This document shows, piece by piece, positions 4,671 to 64,000 of a stretch of 64,000 bases of DNA; the stretch's first letter is position 1; every line of letters begins with the position of its first letter. The notes under the pieces were generated by a model. It made no database searches and was not told the DNA's origin. It worked only from the letters and a program-made list of their open reading frames with translations. The DNA is taken from the NCBI RefSeq assembly GCF_009389715.1, contig NC_052399.1:16619646-16683645 (forward strand), read 5' to 3'. Position numbers and translations under genes: made by a program. This DNA comes from Phoenix dactylifera. Taxonomy: Eukaryota; Streptophyta; Magnoliopsida; Arecales; Arecaceae.

Positions 4671-4989
4671 AGGGAAAAAAAAGGTAATGAAACTCGAACA
4701 CTCATTTAAAATCAGATAAAAGTCATGCAATGCAGCGGGTGAGATCTGTTCGAGAGACTTATGTATATGTTTGATCATCTGACCTCTCTTTGTACAGTTC
4801 AAATCAACCAAGAAAAAAAGGCATAAAAAAAGAGAAACATAAAGCATCAAACAAATGCCAGTGTTCGAATTTTAGTAATTTACCTACCAAAAATTATATT
4901 TTGGGATTAAAAGACGTCCCCACGTCTAGATTGGTGAACATGATGTTATCGCTTTGAGATCCGCGCACATCTCCCTAAACTATCCGCTT

Positions 4990-5240
4990 CATGTGGCCCA
5001 ACATTATAGAGCCGAAGCCCAGATTAAACCTGGCCAGGTCCAATAGCTTGTTGGGCCTCCCGCGCCACCTGTCGGGCCTGCCGCGTGGCACGCCGACATA
5101 CTGTTACTCCGACTTTTACCAGTTTATGCTTCCAATTCCGATATGAGAGGTTCTAGGGTTTCTATGTCCGCAAAGCACCCGCAGCGAGAGGTATCCAGGC
5201 GCCTCTCTTCTTCCATCCTTCTCACCTCCCATTAGGGTTC
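4990..5240 (+). promoter_or_regulatory. Site II and telo-box promoter of the ABCE gene
   Basis: Site II words (TGGGCY) occur at 4994-5000 (reverse), 5016-5021 (reverse) and 5052-5057 (forward). Telo-box words follow at 5155-5161 (AGGGTTT) and 5233-5240 (TAGGGTTC). Site II elements, bound by TCP factors, together with telo boxes are the known promoter signature of plant ribosomal-protein and translation genes, which suits a ribosome-recycling factor. The translation start is about 115-300 bases downstream. No clear TATA box is seen. Confidence 0.6.
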
Positions 5241-5353
5241 GTTCGTCGTAGGTTTATTTGACGCGGGAGCCTCCTCTCTGCTTCTCTCTGTGAGCGGGGT
5301 TCCGTTTTGGATCGGCGCGAGGGCGATCTGCTTGTCTAGAGTAGGGGGGAGCG

Positions 5354-8300
5354 ATGGCGGATCGATTGACTCGTATCGCCATAGTCAGCTCCGATCGCTG
5401 CAAGCCCAAGAAATGCCGCCAGGAGTGCAAGAAGAGCTGCCCCGTCGTGAAAACAGGTTTGTTAAATTCCTGTTTCGTGAAAAGAATGCGTTCTTGATCT
5501 AAAACTTGGGATTTTTTCTAGTTAAAGATTGTTATCCTTTGATTCTAGGGAAGTTTTTTTTTTTGTGTTTTCGTGTTTTGAAGTCTAATTTATTGAAGTA
5601 TTGTTCTCAAAGAAAAATCTTTAATATAGAATATTAAAGTTAGTTGAGGGAATTTTGAGCTTCTGTGCCTGCTATTTCGTTTCCTGGGATCTGTCGGAGT
5701 GGCTTTGCGTGGATCTCGATGAATTTATAATTTTAATCTAAAATCTGATTTTAATCTCGATGAAAGATCATGCTGTTTTTTTTGAGCTGAGAAAAGTTAT
5801 TCTTTTATGGGTGTTGTTGGAGGAATTGGATATGAGATGCCATCGCATATGTTTAGCTTCAGCAGAAGGATTTCGATGATTGTTCTCTGGAACACCTGTC
5901 GCGGCCTTTGTACTTCTGACTGTTGGCTTATAATACCAATCCATGTTGGGCGGAGACCTTTTTTGCTCCTTTTCTTTTCTTGTGGTAGCTGGGAGGGTTG
6001 ATTTTGGAAAGTTATGAGTTGCTAGTTGATCTAGACCTGTTTGCATACTATATGCTAGTTGATTCCTGTGAGAAGTAGAAGTACCTAGCTCTTTTTATAC
6101 CTGAATTTAAGAATATTGTATTGGATGAAGGGCGATATGTCGTAATTTGTGTAAATGGGAGCAGAATTGATATAATCCATTTCTCTGCTGATTCCATCTA
6201 GGGCTTCCGCAGCTCCTTACGAGAGTCAAATATTAAAGTTCTTTATGTAGGTTGATCCGGGCGTTGTCAGCATATGTATAAGTGATCTTGTTTGGATGTT
6301 GAGAAAATAAAGAAAGTGTTAATGAAAAAATAATGGCTGACTAATTATTGAACCTATATTAGCCCATGAGTATAATGTGCCTACAATTGAATCTTCTTTT
6401 TCAATTTCTTTTAATTTTCCTCATGGAACACTGTCGAAGGTGATGGTGCGAATACTGGAGGAAATACCTGCAGCAGGTTTTAATTTTGAATCAAAATTTT
6501 CACGTGAAGCTGGGGACACCAGCACAAAACACACAAAATGGAAATTCATAGTTAGGAGGTATTCTAAAGGTACTCAGGTTTCCTACAACCCCATTAATTT
6601 AAATGATTCGCTGTTGTTCTGTTATGCTACATGATTGCATAGCTCTCCAGAGCACAGACACTTAGAGAAACGTTCGCATGTGTGTTTCAAATTATTGCTT
6701 CTTTTCTCATCAGAGAAAAGTTATCTAATAAATAAGGACAGGATGCAAGCAGCCAAAAAAGAGAAAAAAAAATGTTTGGGTGCAAAAATATAATAAATGA
6801 GTTAGGTTTGCAAAAATTCTGGACCAAAATCTATCAAGAATTGATAGCTTCTAATGCGTATATAAACATAGAATTTACAAGGATCTATCAAGAATATATG
6901 ACCACGACACGAGCTACTGCTTCCATACTGATCCTGGTTTGGTTTGTTTTTAGATAGGGTCTATAATCTATGTTGTCCTTGAACATAGAATTTTCAAGGG
7001 TGCAGGATGGTGAGGCAAAGAGGAGGATGGGGAGTCATCATGGAGGCCAAGTTGGGCAGTTTTGTAGGCGCAGTAGGGTGTGGTTGGTGAGAAGAGGAAG
7101 TGAAAGCAAGGTTTTACTACTAGAAATCTCAAAAATCTTAGTGGTGGTTGATACTTATATTACTTGGGCCCTTCACTTTACCCTAAAATATCTGCACCCA
7201 GGCACTTAAACATAGGTATTATACTAGGACATGGTTTCGTAAGAAGAAATTTTTATGTATTGAAAGGATCCAAAGCTTAGACATGCACTCCACACAACTC
7301 ACAAACTGGAGTTCATCTAACAGGTTGATATTTAGATGGATCAAGATCTTGATTTATCTCAAGTGATATTTAAAATCAGCAAAAATGGAAAGAGACCAAG
7401 ATTTTTGAGATTTCGGTTGGTATGATAGGACCTAAGAATTAAGATACCATGATCTTGGCCAAAATAGTAAGCCCAAATTTAATGACCATTTGAGGGTATT
7501 AATTTGAATATTTAATATTGTAATGGATGGTTTATGAAAAACAAGCTGATATTTGAATAAGTTATTGGTGAATATATTGAGATTTATCTATATGCATCGA
7601 CCAGAATAATAAAGGCTGATATGATATGTCAGTTAGATCAAATCAATGAGTGCCTGATACTGATACGAACTGATATCTCAGTTGAGATACTGGAAAGATG
7701 ATAGCCTTGAGTTGGAAAGAGCACTGGCCAGTGCCTTTTTTTTCCTTCCAGGGTTTTTTTTTTTTTGTTGGGGGGGGGGAGGGGATGGTCATGGAGTTTA
7801 AGTAGATTACAGGGAACATGAAAAGAAAGAAAGAAAGATGTAAACAAAGTGCAATCTAGTCTTTTGCCTCCATTCTATGTGCGTAAGTCCGTAAGGACTG
7901 CTCAAATAGTACTCCTTGTCTAACAAGATACTCTCCCAAATTCATATTTCTGCTTAGCGTAAGTTTGTTGCAAGGAAATGCATGGAAAATGATAAGGAAA
8001 TATCGAACTTTAAAAAAAGCAAAAGTTTTCTGGGAAAGTAGTTCTAAACTTTCCGAATTTGTTAATTTTCTAGAGAAACAAACAATCAAAAAACTAGTTT
8101 CTTTCGAGGAAAGTAAGTTTTCTAGGCAATTATCCCTGCAACCAAACATACCCTTAATTCATTGGAAGATGCGATTATGACTCTCTTTTTTTGTGAACTT
8201 CTCACCAAAATGTTTGGAGGAATCATGCTCAAGGTTCCACTTTTTGGATATATGGATCTGCACCTTGCAAGCAATGAGCTGGGCTTGCACAGGGTCCTGG

Positions 8301-11300
8301 AGTTCTGAATCTAGATTATGCCAAGCAATGTGTGCCATTTTCCACAGTCTGTTCGAGTTATAGTTTAGCTGAATCTCAGTAATGATATTTTCCTTGATAA
8401 CCATGTGAATTTGCAGTCAAAATACAGTCAAGTCCTTGGTTATCAATATTTTCCTAACAGCTGAGGATGTTCGATCCAAAAGTTGGCGTCCAACAAAACA
8501 TGCTTTAGGATCTCTTCTAATCCTTCCCTTGTTGATTCCTTTTTTTTAATATTTCCTGCTACTATGTTAGTGAGAATATATGCCCCACGACTCCGCCTCT
8601 TGGTGCAGGAGTTTATCTGATGTATGAATTCTGAGCCAACTTTTCATTATGCACGTTTTCATATAATTTGCCTAGAAATGCCATGTGAAGTTGGCTGTAA
8701 AGTGTGGGTGTTATTACAGTGTTGTAGCAGAGAATGCAACTGATGAATTTTTTGAATTCTAAGGCTGTACTAGTTTGAATTAAAAACCTCTAAACATTTT
8801 ATGGCCTGGGTTGAACTTTGGTTAATGAGCTGTGCTGGAAGGCTCCAGTCCAGAAGCCATCATTAGGTTTAACCTTGCAAATTGATGATTTTTGACTACT
8901 CTTGATGGTCGGTTTTAACGTTCCAAATTCTTAGATGCCTTCATCGTCCTCCTATACAATGTATTTGTTGCTTAGTTTATTGGGATGGACCTTTGCAGGT
9001 TGTGGCATGCGTATAATAGTATCTCTCTCTAGTAGGGGGTTCTGTCTCTTCTGTTAGTACTAGATGCATTAAATTATTTATCATCATTCTTCCTACCATG
9101 TGAAAGAAGGCTAGTTGTTGTTATTGTTATTATTATCATTGTATTATTGTTGTGGTTATTGTTATTATTATCATTGTATTATTATTGTTGTTATTGTTAT
9201 TATTATCATTGTATGATTCTTGTTGTTATTGTTATTGGATAGTAGAACCATTGTAGGTATGCTTTTTTTTTGGCTCTGTAAGACTAATTTTGCTTCTGTT
9301 TTGGCAGGAAAACTTTGTATAGAAGTCACTCCGGCATCAAAAATTGCTTTCATTTCTGAGGAGTTATGCATCGGATGTGGTATCTGTGTCAAGGTATATA
9401 TGTTCTCTGCTCAACATCTACATTTTTGGTTAGTATGTCTCCTTAACATTGTTGTTGTATTGCCTTGTGATGCAGAAATGCCCTTTTGAGGCAATTCAGA
9501 TTATCAACTTACCAAAGGATTTAGATAAAGATACAACCCATCGCTATGGACCAAATACCTTCAAGTTGCACAGGTTAGTAGAAAATGAAATGTTTATCCT
9601 TATTTTTAAAATTTTAAATTTTCCTGAAAGACACTGATAAAACCCTACAACTGTAGGTTACCAGTTCCAAGACCTGGGCAAGTGTTGGGCCTAGTTGGAA
9701 CAAATGGTATTGGCAAGTCGACTGCCCTTAAGGTGTTGGCTGGGAAGTTGAAACCCAACTTGGGTCGATACAATGTAATGCCCATTCGACCTATTAATCT
9801 GTATATGTTTCTGGATTTATTTATGTACACGACTTTATTTTTTTCTTTCTTTGCAGAATCCTCCTGATTGGCAGGAAATTTTGACATATTTCCGAGGATC
9901 TGAGCTCCAGAATTATTTTACACGCATTCTGGAGGACAATCTGAAGGTGCATATGCGCACAAACTTAGTTGATTTTTTATAAACTGAATGTGGGTGTGAA
10001 CCAATTTGTTCTATTAGTTTCTCATTGTTTATATCACATGTTATATAATACTACATTGCTATTGTCAGTGGTAAATTTTAGGTTTATATTAATCATAAAC
10101 CGCTTGGTTATGAAATCTTGCTCTGGGAGATACAGTGCATTTGTGATGTCCAATGATGTAAATTGTCAGATGACTAAATCCTTTCTTATGCAACTTTGAT
10201 TGGACCTAGATGCAAATGTATTCTTTTCATTTTTAAGTAAGTCATGGTTTCCAATAATGCTTGCTTACATAGCTCCATCGCATTATATTTGGAGAGTAAC
10301 TTCATGGAAAGCATTAATGTTAACATTTTGATATATTTTTTTAAAAAACATATGTCATATCCTATGTATAATGTAAGATATTTGTATTGCTATGTGACCT
10401 CAAATTTTATATCATTTGCAATCAGGAACTGATCTACTGCACCCTTAGTAGATATCCTGTTATACTATAGCATCTTATATCTTTGGGATGTTTAGGTTTC
10501 TGTCTGGTGCAGTTTGAACCTTTCTGGATATACTATCATGCTTGCAATTAATATTAGAATGTTGGTTGGTGGAATTTAACCAACTGTGGCCAGTGCCTTT
10601 AATTGCCACACCAGTTGTCATTTTAAAATAAGGAGCACATGCCTCTCAGTATATGCTTTAGGATTTTGATTCTCTTTTAGGGAATTCTCTGGGGATATTG
10701 TGACACATCATGGATATCAAAAAGATGATGGTTATGATGCTGATAGATTATTGTCTATATTTTTGGATGCAGTTATAACTTCAAATCTGTATTATGAATA
10801 TCTTTTGAAGAGAACACTTTTATAGGTGATTTATAATGATTTGGAACATCAATCTGAGCTAGCTGCTTTAGGTGATTGTTCTCTTATATTCTTTTTATTA
10901 TGAGGCTAATGCATGCCTTAGATTGAATGTTTTAGTTGTTGTAACAGAAAATTTTCTGCTATAGCTTTGGGTTTTAAAAGCCCTTGCTATTTAAAACTTT
11001 TGCTCTAATAATTTCTTGTCCTAAAAGTTGTATAAGTAGCTTTTCTACTGCAAGCATTCACCACGTCCATCTACAAGTCTGCCATTATGTCAGTATTTCA
11101 GTCTGCAGGTCCAGTTGTCATTATAATTAATACTGCTTGAACTATGATGATCGATTCTGGTTTCTTTTATTTTTCATTATAGGACTCCTTCCTTTTCAGT
11201 TTTTTTCTTTTCAGTAATTACTTTCTGGCACGTAACAGGCAATTATTAAGCCCCAGTATGTTGATCACATTCCCAAAGCTGTTCAAGGGAATGTCGGTCA

Positions 11301-14300
11301 GGTGCTTGACCAAAAAGATGAGAGAGATATGAAGGCTGAACTGTGCATTGATCTCGAGTTGAATCAGGTTATTGATCGTAATGTGGGCGATTTATCTGGT
11401 GGAGAGTTGCAGAGATTTGCAATTGCTGTAGTTGCTATACAAAATGCAGAAATTTATATGTTTGATGAGCCATCAAGTTATCTTGATGTAAAACAGAGGC
11501 TTAAAGCTGCACAAGTTGTTCGGTCCTTGCTCAGGCCTAATAGGTACTGGCGATTTCTAGTTTGTACTTTCTTTTTTTTAATGGTTCCATTGTGAAATAA
11601 TATTCTATAACTCACTCATTTTTCCTTTCTCAGCTATGTGATTGTCGTGGAGCACGACCTCAGTGTCCTAGATTACTTATCAGATTTCATTTGTTGCTTG
11701 TACGGGAAACCAGGAGCTTATGGAGTTGTTACTCTACCGTTTTCTGTCCGAGAAGGAATTAACATTTTCTTGGCCGGTTTTGTTCCTACAGAAAATCTCC
11801 GTTTTCGAGATGAATCTCTCACATTTAAGGTAACATTCTCATTTTGGAGTCTATATTTGCTATACAATGATAATCCAGTATAATGGTTTGATATTCTTGC
11901 CCCTTCCAGGTTGCCGAGACTCCTCAAGAGAGTGGTGAGGAGATCCAGGGCTACCAACGATACAGATACCCTACCATGAGTAAAACACAGGGTAATTTCA
12001 AGTTATCTGTGATCGGGGGTGAATTTACTGATTCTCAGATCATTGTCATGCTGGGTGAAAATGGAACTGGAAAGACAACATTTATTCGGATGCTGGTATA
12101 CTATTCTATCTTTTGATCCGGATATCCGTTGCTGTAATCTTCAACTTTTTTTGACCTGATAATGCAAGCTAGCTTAATTATGTCGATAATCGGTGATAAC
12201 CTGAGGTTGGACAAGTTTATTTGGGAATTGAAGGGAACATGCTATTGCAGGTGAAAGGGATTTAATTGGTCATATGTAACTTTAAGAGGATTCGAAATAA
12301 TGCTTGATTCATGTTAGACACTTGACTCAGTCGACGCTTCTCCATGACTTGTGATGACGTTTTGCAGATCATAGCTGTCGTCTACTTGATTGATCTGGTA
12401 CATATTGCAGAATATGCTTGAACCAGATGATTTAACCCAATTGAGCTTTGTGACCTCACTTGCAAAGCAAGACCCTTACGGTTGCCATATAAGGAGGTTG
12501 TTTTCTGCTCATGATATCTCATGAGAGAGGGTTTGGATGGACAATTGTACACATGAGAGAGGTTAGGTGTTGGCACTTCACATCAAATTTGAGGGTGAGA
12601 GAGGTGTTGAACAAGAATACAAATTTTCTGAGTATAACGTATTGCTTGTGACATGATGCCCTCATGAAACTCAAGCTAATTAAATTGGACAGGTTTCTAA
12701 TTTTTTTTTTCCTTCGAAAGTTATAATTCAAAATGCTAGTATTTTTGCACATGTTATGCATGCGCCTATCAGAGGGAAAGTTGGGGGGGGGGGGGGGGGG
12801 GGGGGAGTTTGGCTTCAAGTGCCCCTTCATGTTTACATTGTGGGTCCTACAGAAGGAAACTTCACTTCTGGATTCCGGCTTTGTATGTCCCACTCCAGTT
12901 CTCTTCATACAATGGTGAATGTATGAGGAGTTACACATGCTTTAAAATTAGTCACATGTAATCAAAGGTGGAATTGAGATTTTAGTTATTTAATCATGTG
13001 CAACTGATGATTAAAACTTGGATAACTAGTGACGCAACTAAATGATTTGGTTATGTGAGCAGCATTAACTGTGCGTAGTTGTCATTTCATATGTGTTTTG
13101 GCATAATCCTTATGTACCAACTTGTTGCATCATCACCCTACAAAATAACTCTCTTCCTCTCTGTATACGGTATTGGTGTGTGCTGTTGGTTGCTCATCTT
13201 CTTTTATGATGGATAGACTCGTAGGGGGATGATATAAAAATTTTTTCAAGAAAGAGAAAAATATACTGATGTTGTTGTATACTGACTATTAACTTTGCTT
13301 TGTTGGCCTCCCTTTTTGATTTTGTTGCAAATTCACAGGCTGGATTGTTAAAGCCTGATGTGGTGGAAGATGCAGATGTTGAAATACCTGAATTCAATGT
13401 TTCATATAAGCCTCAAAAGATCAGTCCAAAATTTCAATCTACTGTGAGACACTTGCTGCATCAAAAAATTCGGGATTCATATATGCATCCTCAATTCACA
13501 ACTGATGTCATGAAACCTTTGCAAATTGAGCAATTAATGGACCAAGAAGTTGTAAATCTTTCTGGTGGAGAGCTGCAAAGGGTGGCATTGTGTCTATGTC
13601 TTGGGAAGGTTTGTATAATTATTTTTTTGGCAACTTATGCACTTACCATTGACATGCTTCTTTCTTTTTGTTTTGCTTTTCTGATTTCATGGTAATAATT
13701 TTTGCATAAATTTATTTTCTGCATTAAATATTCAAAACTTAATTTTATTTGGAAAGGAGAATTGCGATGTAACGAGTACCTTATAAAATTACAGTGATCT
13801 TATAGAATGTTTTACTGTTATTATACTTTAGAGTCATAATTTTTTAATAAAATGGTAAAGGAATTTCTCTTTATGAAATTAGTTTCAGAAAACATGATGA
13901 ATAATTACATCTAGTGGTCAATCTTTTTTGTTCATATGGAGACTGTTGCAAGATACCTTTTTTGACCATACTGTTTTTTGTGTTCCTAATGGGCCCTTAA
14001 TTTTCTTTGAAACTGCTTAGGAATTTCTCCCTCTCAATTGGACAGAAATTAATTTTATTTAGTATTCGACCTCAAATAGGCTATCTAGTGCAGCTGCCCA
14101 AGCATTTGCTTATGCTTGTAAAATGCCTGCCTTTAGATTATGAAGAATGGCAGAATCTGTCTATAACTATAGATCTGCTATAAATCTAAATTTTAATTCC
14201 AGATATATTGTCCTTGTCCAATTAAAACTCACCTAAAATAGTAACTGATGTTACAATAATCTGAAAACCTACATGTGGATCTAAACCATCCTCCTATGTT

Positions 14301-16135
14301 TCTAGTTGTGTGAAAAAAATATTGCACACAGTGCAAATATTGTATTATAAGCCTTCATAAAAATCCCTGCTGGTCATTATTGCACATAAGGCAAATGTTG
14401 TATTGTAAGTCTTGCATTTTGAACATGCCATAGACGTTGGATTTTTTTAAAACACTATTATTTAATAACATTTATTCCTAGCTGGGGTTAATGAGCTTTT
14501 CATAGGCTTCTTGACTTGCCATTCAACTTTCCAAGTACACCCATGGGACAAGAAGAATCTCTTCAATGCTAAATCCCATTATCAGCTTGCTCTGTAATAT
14601 CATCAACCTTCTTTTCATGCAAATGTTCAACATTCCCAATTTCCTGCAAAATAGAGGGATATGCTAGGAATTTGACACTGGTCTATGGCAGTGATCAGAA
14701 CAGAGTGCACGTGAACTGGTAGGTTATTCCTTATTCGAGAGGTGCATACCTTCTTAAATTGCTCCATTCTGAATGATGGCAGTGGTTTGCCCTTCTCGAG
14801 CACTGATCAGAAAAAGGACTGAGATGCTTCCTGTTTCTTTACATAGTTGTCTATTGCTTTGTGAAAGCCAACTTCCCTGGTGGAGTGAGATTAATCTGGG
14901 GAAGAGAAGGAAGCACTTGACGAAGCTTCCCTGAATTGGATGGATGAAAAATCTGAAAAATCAATGAAAGATCTTCGCTACATTAACAGCTTCCCATATC
15001 AAACTTAGTTTACTTACTTTCGGAAGGAAAATGTCGTAGGCTATAATCACATAGGCTGACCAATTGAAACCTCCATACCTTACCATTTGGGAACAGTCGC
15101 CGTAATGGAATTCCTTTTTCGCTTAGATGTTTGGTCACAACCATGAATATGTTTACCATTCCAATTTCTTCCGTCTGATGTTCTGATAATCTTTATTTCT
15201 TAGCTTAACTACTAAAGGCAATGATTACGTTTGAGAGCAAATGGCTGCCCATGGTGGTTTATTCTGCTTATAAATCATTTTCTTATTCAAGTAACAGCTA
15301 ATATAGTGATGCTATTTGCTCCATGTCTTCACATATTAGGTTGCATCATACAAATATGCTTATTTTTCATTAACACAAAACAACATATTTGAAATTTATA
15401 ACCGAGTAGATTGGTGTTTAATTTTTGTATTGTGCAAGGGAAAAATCTGGCATTGGAGTAATTATTGATTTTGCTAATTTGTAGTTTCATAATACTTTTA
15501 CTGTTGGATCATAAGAAATTGTTTAGAAGAAACGCATTTTATGAATATGTTGAGTTTTTTTTTTCATTTTTGATGCTTTTGGTATTGATTGGGGTTAGTC
15601 GTGCAGCCTGCAGACATATATCTGATAGATGAACCAAGTGCTTATCTTGATTCAGAGCAGCGTATTGTTGCCGCAAAGGTGATAAAGAGATTTATCCTTC
15701 ATGCAAAGAAAACTGCTTTCGTTGTTGAGCATGATTTCATCATGGCGACTTACTTGGCTGACAAAGTTATTGTATATGAGGGGAAAGCCTCTCTGGATTG
15801 TACAGCCAATGCACCTCAGTCATTGGTATCTGGGATGAATCGCTTCTTATCTGTAAGTGCCAAAATATATTTCATTATTTATCTAATATATTCTGTTCTT
15901 TCATCTGTTTATATATTAGTTATTTTGAATTTCATGATATCCAAGCATAATCCCATCTACAATATTTTGACCTTATTAACCATGAGAGTGTATATTTGGT
16001 TTATTGTGGAAACAGCATCTCAATATTACTTTTAGGCGGGATCCCACTAACTACAGACCTCGGATAAACAAGTTGGACTCTACCAAAGATAGGGACCAGA
16101 AAGCTGCTGGATCTTATTATTACCTTGATGATTGA
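5354..16135 (+). CDS. ABCE2: ABCE-type ribosome-recycling ATPase (RLI2/ABCE2), 11 exons, 605 aa
   Basis: Exons: 5354-5456, 9308-9393, 9476-9573, 9657-9774, 9857-9946, 11239-11543, 11634-11829, 11910-12095, 13339-13608, 15607-15852, 16016-16135. All introns are GT-AG and phases agree through to a TGA stop. The product has the ABCE architecture. An N-terminal ferredoxin-like region carries two cysteine clusters ([15 protein letters not shown] and [12 protein letters not shown]) for two 4Fe-4S clusters. The first ATPase has Walker [10 protein letters not shown], signature LSGGELQR and Walker [13 protein letters not shown]. The second has [17 protein letters not shown] and [12 protein letters not shown]. 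The family splits 80S ribosomes after termination, with eRF1 or Pelota, in the cytosol. The 605-aa length equals my recollection of the Arabidopsis protein, and the C-terminus (YYYLDD) is intact. The start is the only ATG that gives the conserved [11 protein letters not shown] opening; the longer in-frame reading from 5290 has no ATG. Intron 1 (3.85 kb) and intron 9 (2.0 kb) are long. All catalytic motifs are present and I expect the gene to be functional. Confidence 0.97.
5457..9307 (+). other. Intron 1 of the ABCE gene
   Basis: AT-rich intron of 3,851 bp with no exon-like conserved reading frame. Near 7330-7700 are loosely repeated words of the 'gagat..ggtca' and 'gatatctc' type that also occur near 37830-38330 in a tRNase Z intron. 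They may be relics of a shared dispersed element, but I could not define ends. Confidence 0.6.
9114..9238. repeat. AT-rich minisatellite, about 45 bp x 3
   Basis: Three consecutive units built from TTG/TTA/ATT triplets ending in 'atcattgtat' lie at the 3' end of ABCE intron 1, about 70 bases before the exon 2 acceptor. Both strands give spurious low-complexity frames here. Confidence 0.85.
12096..13338 (+). other. Intron 8 of the ABCE gene, with a G tract
   Basis: Noncoding 1,243-bp intron. It contains an uninterrupted run of 23 G at about 12783-12805. The open frames around it, one with a polyglycine and one with a polyproline stretch, exist only because of that tract. Confidence 0.7.
13609..15606 (+). 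other. Intron 9 of the ABCE gene
   Basis: A 1,998-bp intron, AT-rich, with no coding or repeat structure that I can support. Confidence 0.7.
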
Positions 16136-17904
16136 TGTAACAATAGATTATACACAGGTCTCTTTTCTCACTCAGGAAAGGGGGTCGGTTATGGTTGTTT
16201 TGGTGTGTGCATTTATGCTTGCGTGCATGCTTTTTCTGTGTCTACGTCTGTTCCACCTTAGCAAGTCTCTGACCTGTTCTTGCCACATTGCTTTGCAGGC
16301 TATTTTTTCATATTCCCTGTGTGTCAGTGATGAAGATGATTCGGTTGAGAAAACAATCTGCGACGATACATCGAGATCCACCGTGATACATGAAGATCTG
16401 CCATGATGCATGAAGGCCATCGATGTCATATTTTCTATCTGATTGCAGAACTTTAGGTTTGAGTTTTTTCTTCCCCTTTTTGCAGTTCTTTAATGTTTTA
16501 TCTCGAGATTCCACCCCAAAGGAAAACATTGGCTATCGCTTTAGTTCCTATAATGAGGCTGTAACTTGAGTTTTAGAATTGAAGGAGTAGTTTCATATAG
16601 GTTGCAACGGCCCGTTTGATGGTGGAGTTACGCCATCATCTACCCGTTGAAGATCTTGCTGGTGGTGAAACGGTTGTCTGCATAAATATTGATTGATGCC
16701 TACGGATTCAGAGATTTTCTTGGTATGATATCTAGCTTTTCATCACCTTCAGCAGCTGTTGTTATAGTTGACGAGTAGCAAGCTTTCTCCTGGTTTCATC
16801 ATGTCACCTGGATTCTTCTCTATTACTCCTTTGAATTCTTGTTGGTACTGGGGTAAAACCTTCGAGTTATCGCCATTTTGTGGTGTTCTTTTGATTCTGG
16901 AATGATGAAGTGAGCCATTATATATGGATATCTTCGTTTCTGAAAAAACTATCTTAACTGTAACAGCAGCATTATATTATGGCAGAATTCTCTCTACCAT
17001 TGTCTACTGGCCTTTATCTATGCAAAATTCATTATAACAGTTTCGGAGAATTAGTTCAGCACGGTTCCTGAAGCCTGGCGAGCTGTCTGGAAGCTGATGC
17101 TAGAACCTAAAGCATTCAAATATGTCGGCATCTAACAGAACTTTTATATGATATAGTTTAGTGCAAAGCGGAAGTACGTTCTTTTGACGTTCTTCTTACT
17201 ATGGCCACCGTGCCCCCTCCTTGGAACTAGTTTTTGAGAGGAGAAAGGGTCCCAGGTCTATATACTTGTAGATGCATTCTACCCTTTTGAAAAGCTCAGA
17301 ACTGGAAACTCCTTAAGATTAGTGGGTTGGTTCAACAAATGGAAATCCATTTCAGACCTTGTTGTTCTTCCTGCCAGACCTTGGTTGACGTGGATGAGGA
17401 AGAGAAGTATGTGTGAGTTTATCTTGATTACGCCCTTGTTGCTCAGTTTTTTTCTTTCTAGAGGGAGATCATCGATCGATAATCTAAGCCTTTAGCTACA
17501 TCAAAATTTATTCAAACGTGTGATTTCTCATGAAAGGTTTTGTAAGAAAAATGCATCCTCCTTTTCATCATGCAAATTCAATATCAATTTATTTCTTCCA
17601 TAGATTCTATATGGTTTTCAAAATTTGAACAAAAATACTTGTATTTCCCCCTTCTATATTGAATTTTCTTGCCCTGCCATATTAGCATGATGAAAATTCA
17701 CCCAAGTTGTTAACATCTTTTAATAAATTTTGAACAGGTTTATATAATTTTGTAAAAGACACCAAATACGATAATTAGTTTATAAAATAATTAATAATAA
17801 ATATGTAGATAAATAGCTAATATTAGAACATATTATAGCATAATTAATATTGGGATTATAAAGCCCATTGTTGTGGGCTTTCGGTATTAGGGTTTATATA
17901 ATCA
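16136..17904. other. ABCE 3' UTR and intergenic DNA
   Basis: The 3' untranslated region starts directly after the stop. A plausible 3'-UTR intron runs from 16158 (CAG|GTCTCT) to 16298 (TTTGCAG). Its donor would lie about 23 bases past the stop, too close to trigger nonsense-mediated decay by the usual distance rule. The poly(A) site cannot be fixed by eye. Beyond about 17000 I see only AT-rich intergenic sequence. Confidence 0.4.
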
Positions 17905-19096
17905 TAATTAAAAAAGTCGGTACAATAAGTTGGAAAATAGAATAGATGAGATTTTATCCCAATTCCATAAGAGGCAACAGATTACAATGTAAACAGAAAA
18001 GTCGATACAATAAGTTGGAAAAGAGAATGGAATCCCAAAGGCCAATAAGTTGGAAAATAAAACAAAATCCTAAAGGCTAGTTGGAAAACAGAGTGGAACC
18101 CCAAAGGTCAATAAGTTAGAAAATAGAACAAAATCCCGAAAGAGCATACAAACAAACAAAAAGGCAATAGATTGCAATGCAATAATAGGAAAACCGAACG
18201 GATGAGGTCTTATCCCAATCCCAAAAGAGCATGCAAACAAACAAAAAGGCAACATATTGTAATATAAATAAGAAGTCGGTACAATAAGTTGGAAAACAGG
18301 ATGGATGAGGTCTTATTCCAATCCCAAAGGAGCATGTAAACAAACAAAAAGGCAACATATTACAACGTAAATAAAAAAGTTGGTACAATAAGTTGCAATG
18401 TAAACAGGGAAGTGGGTACAATAAGTTGGAAAATAGAACAGATGAGGTCTTATCCCAATCCTAAAAGAGCATGCAAACAAACAAAGAGGTAATAGATTGC
18501 AATGTAAACGGAGAAGTCGGTACAATAAGTTGAAAAAATAGAATGGATGAGGTCATATCCCAATCCCAAAGGAGCATGCAAACAAATAAAGAGGCAACAG
18601 ATTGTAACGTAAACAGAAAGTCAGTACAATAAGTCGAAAAATAGAATGGCTCAGGTCTTATCGCAATCCCAAAGGGGCATGCAAACAAACAAAGAGGCAA
18701 CAGATTGCAATGTAAATGAAAAAGTCGGTACAATAAGTTGGAAAATAGAACGGATGAAGTCTTATCCCAATCCCAAAGGAGCATGCAAACAAATAAAGAG
18801 GTAAGAGATTGCAATGTAAATGGAAAGTTGTTATAATCAGTCGGAAAACAGAACAGATAAAGTCTTATCCCAATCCTATAAGAGCATGCAGATTGCAATG
18901 TAAATGGAAAAGTCGGTATAATAAATTAAGAAACAGAATGGATGAGATCTTATACCAATCCCAAAAGAGCATGTAAACGAACAAAGAAGCAACAGATTGC
19001 AATGTAAACGAAAAAGTCGGTACAATAAGTTGGAAAACAGAACGGATGAGGTCTTATCTCAATCTCAAAGGAGAATGCAAACAAACAAAGAGGTAC
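17905..19096. repeat. Minisatellite, about 104-bp unit, about 11-12 copies
   Basis: The core 'aagtcggtacaataagttgg' recurs near 17910, 18000, 18273, 18410, 18512, 18723 and 19014, each followed by 'gaggtcttatcccaatccc', then 'gcatgcaaacaaacaaa' and 'gattgcaatgtaaac'. Some units are truncated or fused, mainly 18040-18120 and around 18380. The units differ by about 5-15 percent. The Cys/Phe/Leu-rich minus-strand frames across 18070-18898 repeat with the same period and are by-products of the array. Confidence 0.9.
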
Positions 19097-20042
19097 GGCT
19101 GAAAATGTTCACTAATTAGTTAAAATTGAAATTGTTTAGTAATGAGCTAAAAGTTCTCTTTGGACAGAGTTGTAATTTAGCTCTTCTTCTTCTCATGAAA
19201 AATAAGAAAGGTCAATTTTTATCTCACACAACATATAAAGGTGGAAAGTTCACGCAGGCATATGAGATTTTTTAAAGTAATGACATGCTAGCAATATCAC
19301 AATCACATGAGAAAGATAAGGGAAAAAAAGGGCATGCATATAATCTCTGATTCTTTTTTACTTTTGCCATCAAATCAATCTGCAGATAAAAGGACAAAAA
19401 AAGTACACAAAGTACATCGTAGCTCATATATCAATGACAAGAGATATTAATTCTATGTTTTGTGATGAAAAAGAAAGTTAAATAAAAAAGAACAAGCAAG
19501 CTTAACCCCAAAAAAAAAAATGATAGTGCCCAAACCACCAAATTTTTGCAGATGTTGCCATGCACATATATGGCGGCCTTGTGTGATGCAAAGTGGCTTG
19601 CACAGCTAAAATTGCCTTTCCATTGATATGGATGTAAGATCTACCAAAACTAGAGCAGTGGAATGAGTTATGAGATCTTTCATACCAAGTAACCAAGATT
19701 GGAGGATTGATTCGCAAATCAAAAATGAATAGCATTCTTCAAAAAATCTCCACTTTTTAAATTGGATCTCACTGAAAGATTCCAAAATTCGACTCGAGTG
19801 AAATTTTGAAATTCACTATATTTATGCCTTGAAATGGGTTTCACTAAATAAGCTAACAAGGAGAGAGAGTTTTTTGATCAATGATAAAGAGCGATGGCGA
19901 GCTCATCATGGGAAGAAACCGGAGTCACTATCATTTAATAACACCCTACGTCCTCTTCCTACTCAAGCACCTTTCTTAAAATTCGTATTCCACAAAACCA
20001 ATCAAACAACTATAACGAGGAAATAAAGCACGGGCAGCTTAT
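19097..20042. other. Intergenic DNA, nothing recognised
   Basis: AT-rich sequence between the minisatellite and the 3' side of the CASP-like locus. Only short unsupported frames are present. Confidence 0.4.
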
Positions 20043-20280
20043 TTAAATCAAATTTTATAGCTCTACTATGCTGAAACTGAAAAATAAACAACAAGGCTTC
20101 TACCAAAAAAAAAAAAAACTAAGTCAATTACAGATGATGATATCCAAATGGAAACAAATTACATAATTTAATCAAATCAATTTTTATAGTTCTACTCTGT
20201 TGCAGCTGAAAAACGAACAACAAAATAAATTCAAGTCCAGAAGACTACAGATGACATCCAAACACAAATTAGACAATAAT
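20043..20280. repeat. Diverged tandem duplication, about 120 bp x 2
   Basis: The stretch from 20043 is repeated from about 20166 with substitutions and small gaps. Shared words in order are 'aatcaaat', 'tatag.tctact', 'gctgaaaaa', 'acaacaa' and 'acagatga..atccaaa'. It lies just downstream of the minus-strand CASP-like locus and may belong to its former 3' region. Confidence 0.6.
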
Positions 20281-20434
20281 TTGCAGAATTACAATCTGAG
20301 AAGATTACAATTCTTACTCCACAATCTGAATTGAGAGAACCTAAGTAGATGGTTCATAGATCTAACGAGTTGCCGCTAGAAGAAAAACCATACAGTCGAA
20401 TAAACTTAGCACTCGAGAAAAAGAAAAGAGCCCC

Positions 20435-21386
20435 TCAGTCGCTGCTTTTCATAGTTTTCGGAATTCCATTGAGAGCACACACCACAAGGAGACAGAGAAA
20501 GCCAGCATAAGAACAGGCAATGGAGTTGCAGAACTTCTCAAAATAATTGCACACCCGCATCCAGCCCGTGTGGCTGTTTCCTTTCTTTTGCTGTTGCAGC
20601 CGCAGCCGAAGCCATAACCAATGACATTGACATCTGCAACAACAAAGAAATGCCACAAAAATATAACATCAAACACTGACGATACCTACATGTTTTATTT
20701 AGAAGGATCCACCCCCAAGATTGAATGTTAATGTGGTTTTAGTCCCTCTGACTGTTCCCGCATTTGGTTTCGATCGCCGTTATATGTTTAATCATTAAAA
20801 CTGCGTGTAAAATAGATCTGATCGTGCAAAGAAATGACAAGATCAAGTGTTAAATGTCAGACGACTTTGTGGTTTCAGTTAAGGAAATAGGTTTGAAATA
20901 AAAAGTATATTATATATGTAGCAAGACAAGGGAAGTACCAAATTCATGAAGTTGATGAGGCAACTGGTTTCAGTGTACGAGACCAAAATCAGTGCCAGCA
21001 TAGCATATCCAGCGGCCACAAAATTCCCAATCATAAAGAACCTGGAAGCATGAACGCTGAATCATGTATGAACAGATAACACAGAAAAAAAAAAAGAAAA
21101 AAAAAAAACCATGGCTAAAGGGAAGTCCTGGTCTTTTCTCTTCAGCTTTAGCTGCTGATATTTGGTTTGGGATGACCTGAAGGCAGCAGAGGATCTGTAG
21201 TCCGCGTGCATGGTGAAGCCCCCCAATGCCGGTTGTCTGCTCGTCCAAGATGATGACCAGAGCTGCAGCGAACGTGACGACGGTCGCCAACCATCTGAAG
21301 ACCACCTGGGTGGCCCATTTGGTTCTTCTCTCTGCCCTCTCTGGTTCAGGGAGGCTTACTGCTTCCTCTTTGGAGCTGCCTTACAT
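20435..21386 (-). pseudogene. Broken CASP-like (DUF588) four-helix membrane protein gene
   Basis: Three exons can be read on the minus strand: 21386-21177, 21041-20939 and 20633-20435, with good GT-AG borders and matching phases. They give a CASP-like protein: TM1 with VVTFAAALVIILDEQTT, TM2 with FFMIGNFVAAGYAMLALIL, TM3 with SLVMASAAAATA, then GNSHTGW and VCNYFEKFCN, and TM4 with AGFLCLLVVCAL. CASP-like proteins are plasma-membrane scaffolds related to Casparian-strip proteins. The copy is damaged in three places. The only fitting ATG (21386-21384) is followed directly by TAA (21383-21381). A run of six G in exon 1 shifts the frame just after DEQTTGIGG. An extra A in exon 3 shifts the frame between TAKE and GNSHTGW. 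The two shifts sit in short runs, so sequencing error is possible for them but not for the nonsense codon. The family is clear; the subfamily is not. Confidence 0.75.
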
Positions 21387-22050
21387 GCTGTGCGTCCTAT
21401 AAAAGGATAAGGCTAACAGTCTCGGTTAAAGTCAAAATAAATGGGTTAAAATCAAGGTTTCAAGCTTGAGATAAGATTCATTTTGAACTCCCGGAGTTCA
21501 ACGTTTAAAAAACACTTTGAAATCAAAGTTTCAAAGGTTTCAACATGTTGCGGGCGCCAGAGTTTGATTTGGAAGTGTTTTTCAAATGTTGGAGCTCTGG
21601 GAGTTCAAAACAAATCCTTTCTCAAATTTGAAACCTTGATTTTAACCCACTTATTTTGATTTTAACCCATTTATTTTGATTTTAACCGAGACTGCTAGCC
21701 TTATCCTTTCATAGCTAGGACACAGTAAGCCTCCCTGAACCAAAGAGGGCGGCGCACAGCATAGAAGGCAGCTCCAAAGAGTAAGCCTCCCTGAACCAGA
21801 GGGGGCGGAGAGAAGAACCAAACAGTGTTCTTCAGATAGTTGTTAACCGCCATGTTTGCTGCAGCTCTGGTCATCATCTTGGACGAGCAAACGACCGACA
21901 TTGGCGGCTTCACCATGCACGCCGACTACAGAAGAGAGAGTAGAGACCAAGACTTCCCCTTTAGTTATGTTTTATTTTATTTTATTTATTTGTGTGTTAT
22001 CTATTAATACATAATTCAGCGTTCATTGCATGCTTTCAGCCTGATTTGCG
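21045..22050. repeat. Long inverted repeat: head-to-head duplicate of the CASP-like exon 1
   Basis: The arms are about 21045-21533 and 21559-22050, facing each other across a loop of about 25 bases. Each arm holds, from the loop outward, the same 5' flank (the words 'gggttaaaatcaaggtttcaa' left, reverse right), CASP-like exon 1, its donor and intron 1 up to the start of exon 2. The right arm carries its own damage: the start codon reads ATA, TAG replaces a tryptophan codon, there is a 6-base loss near codon 8, and a 40-bp piece of the exon is repeated near 21720-21760. Many differences are C-to-T or G-to-A. A transcript across this region would fold into a hairpin of nearly 500 bp. Confidence 0.85.
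21770..21930 (+). pseudogene. Second, dead copy of CASP-like exon 1
   Basis: The plus-strand mirror of 21386-21177 encodes FAAALVIILDEQTTDIGGFTMHADY in an uninterrupted stretch at about 21853-21927, and its G run reads GGCGGC, the expected in-frame form. Upstream it has lost the start codon (ATA), gained TAA and TAG in frame, and no exons 2-3 follow. It is a fragment, not a gene. Confidence 0.75.
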
Positions 22051-22080
22051 TTCATCGCATGGTTTCAGCCTGATCTCGAT

Positions 22081-22720
22081 GGAACCGAAATAATAGCAAG
22101 GGTGTGGTTTGAACCTCCTCTGATGTCGATGGTATGGATATATGGGAATGGTTCTTGGTCTGCGCGTTTGAAAATGGGAGCCGATGAAGGAATAAGCTCT
22201 GACTGTAAGAATTTCTATCAGAACCGGATTACTTCATCGACAAGGGCTAGAATTAGGGCAATACAAGGAGTCGTTAAAAGTACAAGCTGCCACGCCAGGG
22301 CTACGTAGGCCCAAAATACTACTTCAACTGGCATCCACAAATACTTCTATTCAGACAGATGATAGAATTCTTCACCTCGGGCAATGCACATTGGATGAAA
22401 GCATTGTCACGGCCTCATCTAATGCTAAAGAGCGAGGAACGTAGGTGTGCTCCATTTAGGAGTAGATAACGATGACCTGTGGAGCAGGAGAATTGAAGAA
22501 TTTTATGCAGCATCATGGAAACCAACGAGCAGTCAGCCCTCTACGATCTGTTTGAATCATGAAAAATGAGACATTTATAAACAATAAAGAGAGAAGAAAA
22601 GGGAAGGGGACAAAAAAAAAGAGAGAAAAAAATCCAATTCTCAGGTTCATTTCACCCGCATGCTGATTATATAAGATAAAAATGCAATCGACATAAGTGA
22701 CAAACAAAGCCCCAAACAGT
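22081..22720. other. Intergenic DNA, nothing recognised
   Basis: Sequence between the right arm of the CASP-like inverted repeat and the predicted 3' end of the MTV1 gene. No supported gene. Confidence 0.4.
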
Positions 22721-22721
22721 A

Positions 22722-22727
22722 TTTATT
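22722..22727 (-). terminator. Candidate poly(A) signal of MTV1
   Basis: AATAAA on the minus strand, about 260 bases past the MTV1 stop codon. It is the first canonical signal I noticed downstream. No transcript evidence. Confidence 0.4.
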
Positions 22728-22985
22728 GAAGAGACACAGCAAACTGCACATCTGGCTTAAATTTCACAGTTAAATACAGCAACCTAGAACCATCCTCTCT
22801 ACAACACCTGAGCAGTTTCAACTATATACCTAACAACACACTATGGAAATTGGCAAGGGGAAGTATAGCTCATGCAGCTTGAGGCACAAATGTCATTATT
22901 GCAAAAGAATGACTAAAGGCGCTTCCATTAAGCACCAAACCAGTTTTGATCCTTTTTGACGGTAAAACATGTGCTGTTAAAAGCT

Positions 22986-25900
22986 TCAAAGAACTCTCTT
23001 TGAATCACGGGCTGCTGCAATATGATCCTGCCAAAGGAGGAAAAAAAGCATTATTGCACAGCAGTCATATTGTTGAGCATTATTGTGCAGCAGTCATATT
23101 GTTATCTTTCGCAAGGATGAAATGGATCGCCCAGTAATGAAATTAGTCCGAGTACTACTATAAATAAACAGAATTCTAACAACAAAGATCAGCAAGAACA
23201 TTACTTAACTAGTCACACAGGTATGCGATCCACATTTACAGGCCATAAGAAGAATGATAGCATTAACTTTTGCCAATGTAGCATTTTCAGAAACATGAGG
23301 ATCAATCAGGAGATACATGATACTAGATCTGGAAACTGAAAGGAAGCTTGCAAATATACAATGAATTTGAATTTAGCAGCACTTCTATAGTAAGTGCATG
23401 GCACATATCAAACCCAATTAACAAGGATGCTAGTCTATACATTCATATCTAGGATTTAGCTTATCGATTTGCTGGATAGATTGTTCATATGGATCTAATG
23501 GCACAAATTATTAGTTGCGACCACATGATACATGCAAACTTGACACAGTTTTTCCATGCTGGACTGACTCTGCAGAACTGAAGCTAATGAGCATAGCCAT
23601 CTACCTTTTTCCCCACTATTTGGGGTTGGCTAACTGAAGCTAATATTGCATGACTTTGGGTTCTTATATGACTAAATCTCTGACATTCAGGCAGGTATTT
23701 GTGATATTCTCAGCGGAAAAAACCTACTGAATGAATGAAAGAAAGGTGTTTGTGTTATAGACCAGAAAGTTTTATGCGACAAAATATGACTTATTCACCC
23801 TTTTATTTTTCAATATGTGGTAGAAACTGCTTGTCTGATACTAGTTTGACTGTGCAAGCATCATATTTCTCTCGTGTGCTCAAATTTTCAGCAGTGAAGA
23901 ATAAATCTAACATGGAAGTCCTCGATTAATCACAGTAACATCCTAGAACATGGAATCTTCAACAGTTGACTTCTTAAGCACACACATGGGAGAATCATAC
24001 CGATATAAAATCGAAAGCTTTAGTCTCCTCTTTCTTCGAGCTGTTCATGATCGGACCATGGCTTTGAACTGAATTATTTGAAAGCTGAAAGAAATCAGGG
24101 AGCGGTGAAGAATAACCTCCATTGGCATTTCCAGCCATGCCCCCAAATCCAGAATTGAGATTCCCAAGGTTTTGAAATAGTAATTGCTGCTGAGCAATGA
24201 AAGATCCCATTGCGCCATAATTCATTGGCTGGGCAGCAAAAGCTGGATTAAACATATTGTTTGGAGGCATGCCATGCTGCATGGGAGCCTGAGCATACAA
24301 GGTATTTGAACCAAGGATACCATTAAATGCTCCATTGGTAGGCAGCTGGCCTGCTTGACTGCCACCATCTAAGAAAGTTACTCCTGGAAAGGCACCTCCA
24401 GATGCTCCAGAAGGTCCAAGTTGTTTGTTATCTTGGGCCATTCCATTGAGAGTTAGACCAGCCATCAAATCATTCACATTCTTTTTATCTGCTCCTGTAT
24501 CCTGCAGAAGCTGCCCAGAGTTGGCACCAAAAACATCGAGCAATTCGGACTTATTATCAGCAGGCGTTTTGAGTTCAATATTGGATTTCTTGTCATCCAC
24601 TGTCAGTCCAGAGAAAAGATCATCATGCTCCTTGTCTTCAGTGACATGAAATGATACATCTGCAAATGGATCCTCCTCATTTTTAACCTCAGTGGTACCT
24701 AGTCCAGAAATAAGGTCACCTCCAAAAAGATCGTCAACCAGAGGAGGGGGCAATGTTAGCTTCCCAGTGCTTTGGTCCCCCTGCTTCTGAATGGAAGCTT
24801 CATTTCCACGATCATCTGGATCACCTGTATCAATTAAGTCAGGCATCTGAACCATAGGTGCAGGGGTAGCTTTTGCATCTGATGGCTCCCCTGCATTCCC
24901 TGCTCCATTAGTCTGCTCCCCATCTAGAAGACTTAAGACCTAAATAAAAGCAAAACAATACAACCTGTCAGAATTGTAGAACTAATAGCAGAAGATATAG
25001 AACATTGTTTGTATAGTGTGAAGATAGCAAGCCATCCAGTCCTACAACCTAAGATTGTCTTACATATAACATACGTCTAAAGCTAGTAATTCGCTGCCAA
25101 ACAAGTTCTTGCACTTCTTTTGCTGTTTAAAAATAACCAAATTGAAAACACAAAAACAATCAAAGGGGGATCAAAAGAGCTATGTAAAAAGGGCTAGCTC
25201 AGAGCTGATTACGGGCCGCCCAGCCCGGAATTTTTCGGGCTTGGGCATTAAAAAAAGGCCCATGGGTCGAACCTGGGCAAGAAAAGCGGCCCAACAAAAA
25301 AAAAAATCGGGTCGGGCCTGGTCAGGCCATTCTGGCCCATTTCCAGATTCCAAATAAAGAAAAAATCGGGCCTGTCGGGTCGGGCCGGGCTAGACGGGCC
25401 TAGAACCAGATTTATAAAGTCGGGTCGGGCCTGGACAAAAATTTAATCCCGACAGTCGGGCCGGGCCGGGCCTGGGCATAGCCATCGGGCCTAATTTCTG
25501 CTGTAGAGCCCGGCCCGGCCTGGGTTTTGATCAGCTCTAGGCTAGCTGACACCACCTTGACCTCATGTCAAGCATAGCTGATGCGAGTGGAGCCCATCGA
25601 GATGCCACAATAAGGCTACAAATGAGAGCAACACAGGCCAACCTAACAAACGGAATTACTGAAAATTGACTTGGGAACAGTTTAAGTTATTCAGGTTATC
25701 TCTCTCTCTCTCTCTCCCCCACCCTCCCCTCCCCCCCCCCCCTTTTGAGTTGAATGTCATAAATGTGAACCTTTTTGCAATAAATATCCCTCCCTCTCTT
25801 CTATGTTAACTTGTTTAGTGGCATAAGCATAAATCTTTTCAAAGTTATAAGTCAAGATGGCATATCTTTTTGCTTTTCTTTATGGTCAACAACCTATCCA

Positions 25901-61517: not shown

Positions 61518-62686
61518 GACTTAGCATATTTTTCTTTTCTTTTCATTGTATCCGGGGTCGGCCCTTGAGCGGCCGACTTCCAATTTTGTAATTGGCCTTC
61601 CGGCCCTTTGTTAATGAGAAAGTATTTTTGCCATTCCGTGTTCATCTTTCCCTCTGTTGTCATGACCGAGGCCAGGGCCTTAGCGAACCGCCTCGATGGC
61701 CTAGCTTTGCATTTTAATTTCCGGGCTGCTTAACAAAGTTGTCCTTCTTCCCGGGCTACGTCTTAGCCTTCTCGGGTTCCAGTCATCCCGACGAAGAGGA
61801 GCTCCGAGTCTTGAGTTTTTTTTAGAAAATTTCTCTAAGTCCTATAGCTCGGATTTGGGAGTCGTGGAGGTCATTGCGTTTAGCCTTTAGGGGAGTCCCA
61901 AGGCGTCGAGGTCGGGCCTTAGCCCTTTAACTAAGACCGGACTAGGTCTGTGCGTGCCGCTAATCGGGGAGTTTAGTCGGGTCTCCGAACTTAACTCCAA
62001 ACCCCTCAGAGGGAGCGCGGGCCAATAGGCAGGTTATTACCGACGGTTTTCGTAGTTATTGTTCTCGGACTCTGCCGAGGCTTCGGTGAGCAAGGCTGGG
62101 TTTCCAGAGATTGCCTTGGTACCCGCGTTTGGCTGGCACATTCGTGGCCGGGACCACTTTTTCAGCCGGACGTAGGAGCTTACGTCGAAGAGCCGAGTTG
62201 GGCACTGATTTATGAAATCCTCTGTACCAGTTTCGGAGGCTTGACGAACGGTGCATGCATAATGTAATTAGGAGGTCGATCCTAAGCCGACCCGTTAGAG
62301 AGGCCCGACTTTGGGGCGAGATAAGGCTCCAACATTAAGATTCCGCTCAGTAATATGTAAATAAAATTTGACAAGGAGGGCGTCCAGTTGAATGTACCTC
62401 TTTCATTCTCAGAGTTATGCTTCGCATGGTGGAGTAGGCTGCTTCCCTTCCTCGTCGACCTGCGGAGTCATTTTTGACTTTAAGGGGGCTCGGGCTTCTC
62501 ACGGACCCGACAGCACCCGCCGAGGTTGAGAGGGCTTGGGGAGACTTTATTGATTTGTAGCTCTTTGCGAGGTCGAGGGAGTTTGAGACCCTGTGGTCGG
62601 ACCTCGGGGCACCTCAACCTTGGTCGAGGGGTCTTGTGTCAGGTCGGCGGGTCTGCGGACGCTTTGCTGACCTGTGGTACCTCCCG
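61518..62686. mobile_element. Retrotransposon 3' noncoding region
   Basis: GC-rich sequence with many 'gtcgg', 'gaggtcg' and 'ccgac' words. It continues the element body between the opposite-strand ORF and the tandem array. A loose precursor of the array unit is visible from about 62565 to 62686. There is no gag or pol coding. Confidence 0.6.
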
Positions 62687-63830
62687 AAGTCGAGGGAGTC
62701 TGATTCTCTACGGTCGACCCTCGGGGCATCCCGACCTTAGTCGAGGGGGCGCTACGGGGGGCCGCGAAGGTACTATCCCGTTGTTGGTGATGAGCGCCAC
62801 GGGGGGCCGCGAAGGTACTACCCCGTCTTCCCGAAGTGTCGAGGGGTCTGGGCACGCACTGTCGACACTCGGGGCATCTCGACCTTAGTCGAGGGATCGC
62901 TCGCTTCGGGGATCGGGGATCGTCGACCGCTCCTGGGGGTCCACTTCGTGGCGCCCCAGGTGGAGCCGCCCTTTCCACCCCTCATGGCGCCTTTCCGAGG
63001 TCGAGGGAGTCTGGTTCTCTACGGTCGACCCTCGGGGCATCCCGACCTTAGTCGAGGGGGCGCTACGGGGGGCCGCGAAGGTACTACCCCGTTGTTGGTG
63101 ATGAGCGCCACGGGGGGCCGCGAAGGTACTACCCCGTCTTCCCGAAGTGTCGAGGGGTCTGGGTACGCACTGTCGACACTCGGGGCATCTCGACCTTAGT
63201 CGAGGGATCGCTCGCTTCGGGGATCGGGGATCGTCGACCGCTCCTGGGGGTCCACTTCGTGGCGCCCCAGGTGGAGCCACCCTTTCCACCCCTCACGGCG
63301 CCTTCCTGAGGTCGAGGGAGTCTGGTTCTCTACGGTCGACCCTCGGGGCATCCCGACCTTAGTCGAGGGGGCGCTACGGGGGGCCGCGAAGGTACTACCC
63401 CGTTGTTGGTGATGAGCGCCACGGGGGGCCGCGAAGGTACTACCCCGTCTTCCCGAAGTGTCGAGGGGTCTGGGCACGCACTGTCGACACTCGGGGCATC
63501 TCGACCTTAGTCGAGGGATCGCTCGCTTCGGGGATCGGGGATCGTCGACCGCTCCTGGGGGTCCACTTCGTGGCGCCCCAGGTGGAGCCACCCTTTCCAC
63601 CCCTCACGGCGCCTTTCCGAGGTCGAGGGAGTCTGGTTCTCTACGGTCGACCCTCGGGGCATCCCGACCTTAGTCGAGGGGGCGCTACGGGGGGCCGCGA
63701 AGGTACTACCCCGTTGTTGGTGATGAGCGCCACGGGGGGCCGCGAAGGTACTACCCCGTCTTCCCGAAGTGTCGAGGGGTCTGGGCACGCACTGTCGACA
63801 CTCGGGGCATCTCGGCCTAAGTCGAGGAAT
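62687..63830. repeat. 311-bp tandem array, about 3.7 copies, inside the retrotransposon
   Basis: Units begin at about 62687, 62998, 63309 and 63620 with 'gtcgagggagtctg.ttctct'. The fourth breaks off near 63826. Identity among units is very high (a handful of substitutions). Each unit contains an internal duplication of about 46 bp around 'cacggggggccgcgaaggta' and several 'tcgacc'/'ggtcga' palindromic words. A fifth, diverged start appears near 63868. The periodic open frames on both strands here repeat every 311 bases and are not genes. Confidence 0.93.
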
Positions 63831-64000
63831 CCTGCTCCATTCCACGTCTCATCGTCTTGCGATTCTTCCCGAGGTCGAGGGAGTTTGGGACTCTACGGTC
63901 GAGCCTCGAGGCATCCCGATTTTGGCCGGGGAATCTGAGGATCACAGACGACCCAATATTAAAAGAGGATTACAGCTATCAAGGTGAGAGAAATATTTGC
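63831..64000. mobile_element. Retrotransposon body continuing off the window
   Basis: Diverged array-related sequence to about 63940, then unique sequence to the edge. gag-pol should lie beyond, on the minus strand. Confidence 0.5.

Follow-up and report, generated by a model that had tools for sequence, protein, structure and literature searches.

The window analysed here is a stretch of 64,000 nucleotides of the date palm (Phoenix dactylifera) genome (C8:16619646-16683645; positions below are counted from its first base). On its minus strand lies a three-exon CASP-like pseudogene. Exon 1 (21177..21386) has a putative ATG that is followed at once by TAA, and its frame is shifted by one extra base in a C-run at 21219-21224. 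It is separated by intron 1 (21042-21176) from exon 2 (20939..21041), which is open on the minus strand and aligns with a second copy of the gene on contig C9. Exon 3 (20435..20633, minus strand) is apparently frameshifted. Five pieces of the locus were scanned against Pfam. Only the exon 3 piece passed the cut-off of 26.2 bits for PF04535, with 27.2 bits for its 3' part; the exon 1 piece stayed below it at 13.1 bits, the exon 2 piece had no CASP match of its own, and the piece from the inverted copy described below had no match at all. With the frameshift in exon 1 and the apparent one in exon 3, the pseudogene has no intact reading frame.

The front of this pseudogene is the left arm of an inverted repeat. 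The left arm (21042..21550, gene sense on the minus strand) comprises, as the preliminary description had proposed, exon 1, intron 1 and 5' flanking sequence (about 165 bp); the exon bounds were read by eye. The right arm (21551..22039, plus strand) is a partial inverted copy, and its outer end is the homologue of the 3' splice AG of intron 1 (22038-22039). The two facing arms that had been described are present: aligned in gene sense, they are identical at 357 of 424 ungapped columns and differ at 67, with 12 gaps (84% identity, 16% divergence, K2P 0.18). The longest identical stretches span 32, 37 and 32 ungapped columns. Self-BLAST of positions 20000-23500 returned the repeat on the minus strand over 818 columns (E 4e-128). 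We surveyed inverted repeats in 57 sequences of this genome, all searched alike (308 kb, some overlapping or near-duplicate), and the arms were by far the largest local one, with 818 columns vs 89-116 for five others. The inverted repeat is real and is an unusually long DNA palindrome. A palindrome of about 115 bp, 81% identical over 116 columns, was also seen near another CASP-like locus (L045, 2057-2171).

The palindromic centre (21397..21714, no strand assigned) consists of the duplicated 5' flanks. A loop of about 25 bases had been reported; pairing in the middle is poor (69% in the first block of the alignment), so the loop has no sharp bounds. We searched the genome (773 Mb, 2391 contigs) for further copies. 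The centre matched this place only, in a search that skips very common words, and the right flank also matched a single place. The outer junction of the right arm is spanned by a 29-bp tandem repeat, whose two copies (22019..22074, plus strand, repeat family D5) are 93% alike, lie 29 bp apart and straddle the end of the arm.

Each arm carries lesions that are absent from the other. In the right arm, 48 bp of the left arm are missing across the exon-1/intron-1 junction, splice donor included, as are a further 7, 10 and 3 bp; the right arm reads ATA at the position of the ATG. Both copies are coding-dead, in agreement with the preliminary description, the left one with the ATG-TAA and the frameshift, the right one with the ATA and the missing stretches.

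Queried with 351 bases of the left arm, the genome yielded four hits: three within the locus and a single one on C9. The C9 copy has the same exon structure and aligns over exons and introns at about 72%; no inverted arm was found within the 9 kb compared. It carries an in-frame stop upstream of the first membrane segment as well as an apparent frameshift late in exon 3, and thus looks broken too. Near this copy, the C9 region also holds a block homologous to 4.9-16.9 kb of the window. This second block, common to both, makes the C8 and C9 regions appear to be products of a larger duplication. The two common blocks are ordered differently on C8 and C9; the common block sits on the opposite side of the CASP-like copy on C9, which suggests rearrangement after the duplication. 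The common gene block extends over 4928-16858 in the window and over offset 79-93 kb on C9 (L014-L016), and contains an ABC-type match too weak to reach the Pfam cut-off.

Several other features were observed in the window. A unit of about 1114 bp occurs twice in tandem at 1-2230 (96-100% identical by segment). At 17884-19095, 1.3 kb from exon 3 of the pseudogene, lies an AT-rich tandem array whose period is about 104 bp. A GC-rich tandem array of 311-bp units occupies 62682-63914, and related stretches occur about 2-4 kb from the C9 copy. Beyond 58 kb of the window, GC content reaches up to about 0.6.

The C9 copy provides a scale for the age of the arms. Over the same 221 columns, K2P is 0.156 from arm to arm vs 0.40 and 0.47 from the arms to the C9 copy, so that the divergence between the arms is a third to 0.4 of that to C9. 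The locus had been presented as young; by this comparison the arms are old. Palm DNA changes at about 2.6e-9 substitutions per site and year, a rate that would put the age of the arms at roughly 30-35 million years and make the word young unfitting.

The C9 copy also bears on the sequence around the repeat. At 22077..22094 (minus strand), 17 of 18 bases are the same as in sequence upstream of the C9 copy, and the match is oriented as a resumption of the ancestral 5' flank would require. None of 200 shuffles reached the score of this match, which is short and was noticed before it was tested. We tentatively regard it as the point where the ancestral 5' flank may resume. The similarity of the central flanks to the C9 upstream region is at shuffle level (reached by 60 and 54 of 200 shuffles), so the centre is unsupported as ancestral 5' flank.

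It had been proposed that C-to-T and G-to-A changes concentrate in the right arm, as expected from methylation. We counted 22 changes from C/G in the left arm to T/A in the right and 22 in reverse (p 1.0); the transitions are symmetric, and there is no methylation-type excess in the right arm. CpG loss shows no excess either: a CG of the left arm corresponds to TG or CA of the right arm in 4 cases, and the reverse holds in 3. Transitions that keep pairing through G:U wobble are likewise not in excess (23 keep pairing vs 21 that break it). When the C9 copy served to polarise changes (223 columns), 15 fell to the right arm (among them 4 G-to-A, 0 C-to-T, 3 A-to-G and 1 T-to-C) and 8 to the left arm, including 2 G-to-A; the right arm may be somewhat more changed overall. 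Over all 424 columns, mismatches are clumpier than permuted ones by dispersion (p 0.016), with p 0.086 for the longest run. The 257 columns of the core hold 29 mismatches, spaced like permuted ones (dispersion p 0.15, longest run p 0.24), and we ascribe the clumping to two regions outside the core: the centre, where pairing is poor, and the T-rich end of the intron. In the flank beside the start (21397-21455), only 3 of 59 columns differ; this counts against plain drift, since such low divergence could reflect constraint or late gene conversion.

Folding of the transcript had been suggested as a check. For a 997-nt RNA, the predicted energies on the two strands are -594 and -596.5 kcal/mol, far more stable than shuffled sequence, which averages -276 and -271 kcal/mol over 20 shuffles per strand (z -36 and -42). 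Long pairing between the arms is kept, as had been claimed, and the palindrome could pair over hundreds of bases, as in a hairpin-siRNA locus of the IR-PTGS type. The predicted fold contains helices of up to 35 and 42 pairs and pairs 81% of the bases, with an MFEI of 1.36-1.37. The inner 326 nt form a strong hairpin on their own (z -20). A MIRNA precursor is expected to have a foldback of about 300 nt or less; the foldback of the palm locus measures about 1 kb, and the inner 326-nt hairpin is only part of it.

The orientation of the arms restricts how such a hairpin could be transcribed. The 5' ends face each other, and transcripts driven by the duplicated flank would run outward. They would be two same-sense RNAs, which therefore cannot pair, and no hairpin would result. 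A hairpin would need read-through that starts outside an arm.

The preliminary description had also proposed that small RNAs from the locus target functional CASP-like paralogues. PF04535 has 61 matches in the genome; our target scan covered 59 of these 61 match places in 54 loci (140,833 bases, made up of Pfam-matching exons with flanks and not always whole genes). The C1043 locus was left out, the C9 copy was scanned apart, and the arms were used without the outer T-rich part of the intron. In the 54 loci, the left arm's best 21-mer had 3 mismatches and lay at the corresponding exon position of L069; that of the right arm had 4. Shuffled arms, ten versions of each, also get down to 3 or 4 mismatches in the same loci, so the arms match these paralogues no better than shuffled sequence. 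Of 415 left-arm 21-mers, 17 match the C9 copy with one mismatch or fewer, and the best match is perfect. The best right-arm 21-mers, which are the antisense ones in a minus-strand transcript, have 3 mismatches (12 of 392), and 0 of 392 have one or fewer. A functional homologous target was not found among the 54 CASP-like loci and the C9 copy, which itself looks frameshifted.

We also compared 38 distinct date-palm small RNAs (40 rows) from Table 3 of PMC4633500, a short list formed by the duplex subset of 180 novel sequences; none of these 38 came within 6 mismatches of 20901-22100. No Rfam family at gathering score and no tRNA by ARAGORN were found in the window. Among the matches listed for literature on inverted repeats and palm CASP-like genes, nothing concerned this locus.

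Taken together, the locus most likely reflects a known kind of event, the partial inverted duplication of a CASP-like gene, followed by decay: a head-to-head inverted copy of 5' flank, exon 1 and intron 1 lies beside a three-exon pseudogene. In the simplest history suggested by the sequence, a backward copy of the gene front was inserted into the gene's own 5' region. A repair or replication error would have made this copy after the C8 and C9 copies had parted, and the old upstream sequence would have been displaced outward to about 22077, as the 18-base match suggests. Both arms would then have drifted, and the locus would have no selected function today. A polymerase that started beyond the arms, either in the displaced upstream region to the right or in antisense from the left, could produce a hairpin RNA of about 1 kb. 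Dicer-like enzymes could cut this hairpin into mixed siRNAs with the locus itself as their main target, so that the locus may have a passive siRNA output. The evidence examined does not make the locus a working small-RNA gene; the arms look like ageing debris.

Other readings give the palindrome an active role. A live hairpin-siRNA locus would be transcribed by read-through from the displaced upstream region, its 1-kb foldback would be cut by DCL2/3/4, and the siRNAs would silence the locus and perhaps the C9 copy. The predicted fold energies, with z-scores of -36 and -42 and helices of up to 35 and 42 pairs, are consistent with this, as are the 17 of 415 left-arm 21-mers that match C9 with at most one mismatch; excerpts of PMC3608071 describe natural inverted gene repeats that silence via read-through transcription. 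However, the wobble bias is absent, the antisense 21-mers of the right arm match C9 with at least 3 mismatches, the C9 copy looks broken, and 0 of the 38 small RNAs in Table 3 of PMC4633500 match, which leaves this reading unlikely. In a variant that we regard as quite improbable, the copy was inserted between gene and promoter, so that the old promoter would read through antisense arm, loop and sense gene. In this self-silencing switch, the hairpin made from the gene would have killed it, and residual siRNAs would still act against the C9 copy. A true MIRNA gene born from inverted duplication, with one favoured duplex, would agree with the geometry of the inverted-duplication model and with the MFEI of 1.36-1.37, and in Arabidopsis one miRNA gene overlaps a pair of neighbouring, inverted pseudogenes that are paralogues (excerpts of PMC3237417). 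Yet the stem of about 490 bp is not that of a short precursor, mismatches in the core appear to leave no single protected 21-nt block, the window has no Rfam family at gathering score, and the comparison with the 38 small RNAs in Table 3 of PMC4633500 is again negative; this origin is exceedingly improbable.

The remaining readings concern the source of the palindrome itself. A MITE or gene-capturing element might have supplied it, and the inner 326 nt do form a strong hairpin alone (z -20). This is very improbable: the centre is found at this place only (very common words being skipped), the right flank matched once, and the outer arms are gene sequence. Multiple genomic copies of a repeated transposon or MITE were not found, and a repeated transposon is rejected because the centre matched once in the genome in that search. 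Palindromes are a known error of long reads, and the repeat could in principle be a read-through palindrome of the assembly. But 67 of 424 columns differ between the arms, whose alignment also has 12 gaps; the right flank matched one place and the window contains no N. Because the arms are 16% divergent, the repeat is not a fresh assembly palindrome, and we give an artefact almost no weight. The palm locus can be compared with several known systems.

Soybean CHS and rice Lgc1 glutelin are natural inverted gene repeats that silence, cited in PMC3608071, where, in the excerpts considered, such silencing is explained by read-through of rearranged genes. Like them, the palm locus consists of inverted gene copies able to give dsRNA by read-through. 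The soybean and rice repeats have live targets, whereas no live close target was found among the CASP-like copies compared here. Their arms are also near-identical, while the palm arms are 84% identical. In the Arabidopsis case, a MIRNA gene derives from two adjacent inverted paralogous pseudogenes, and the parent gene is the target of the miRNA (excerpts of PMC3237417). The palm locus resembles it in having two adjacent inverted pseudogene copies of one parent, but differs in that no intact parent was found, nor a matching small RNA among the 38 compared.

The inverted-duplication origin of plant small-RNA loci reportedly goes back to Allen et al. 2004. As the preliminary description had held, this route to small-RNA genes is established (excerpts of PMC1790633 and PMC3237417). 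The stages of the model are a large foldback, siRNA-like output, drift and death (Fahlgren et al. 2007, excerpts of PMC1790633). The palm arms share with it an extended similarity to a protein-gene family. Unlike in the small-RNA loci of this origin, the gene of origin is itself dead, any small RNAs are hypothetical, and the 5' ends face inward, so the duplicated flank drives no hairpin transcript. If siRNAs are made, the locus would represent an intermediate stage of the inverted-duplication path that can be dated, the arm-less C9 copy serving as a built-in control. Otherwise, it would be a clear example of drift and death, perhaps the commonest fate according to the model's authors (excerpts of PMC1790633).
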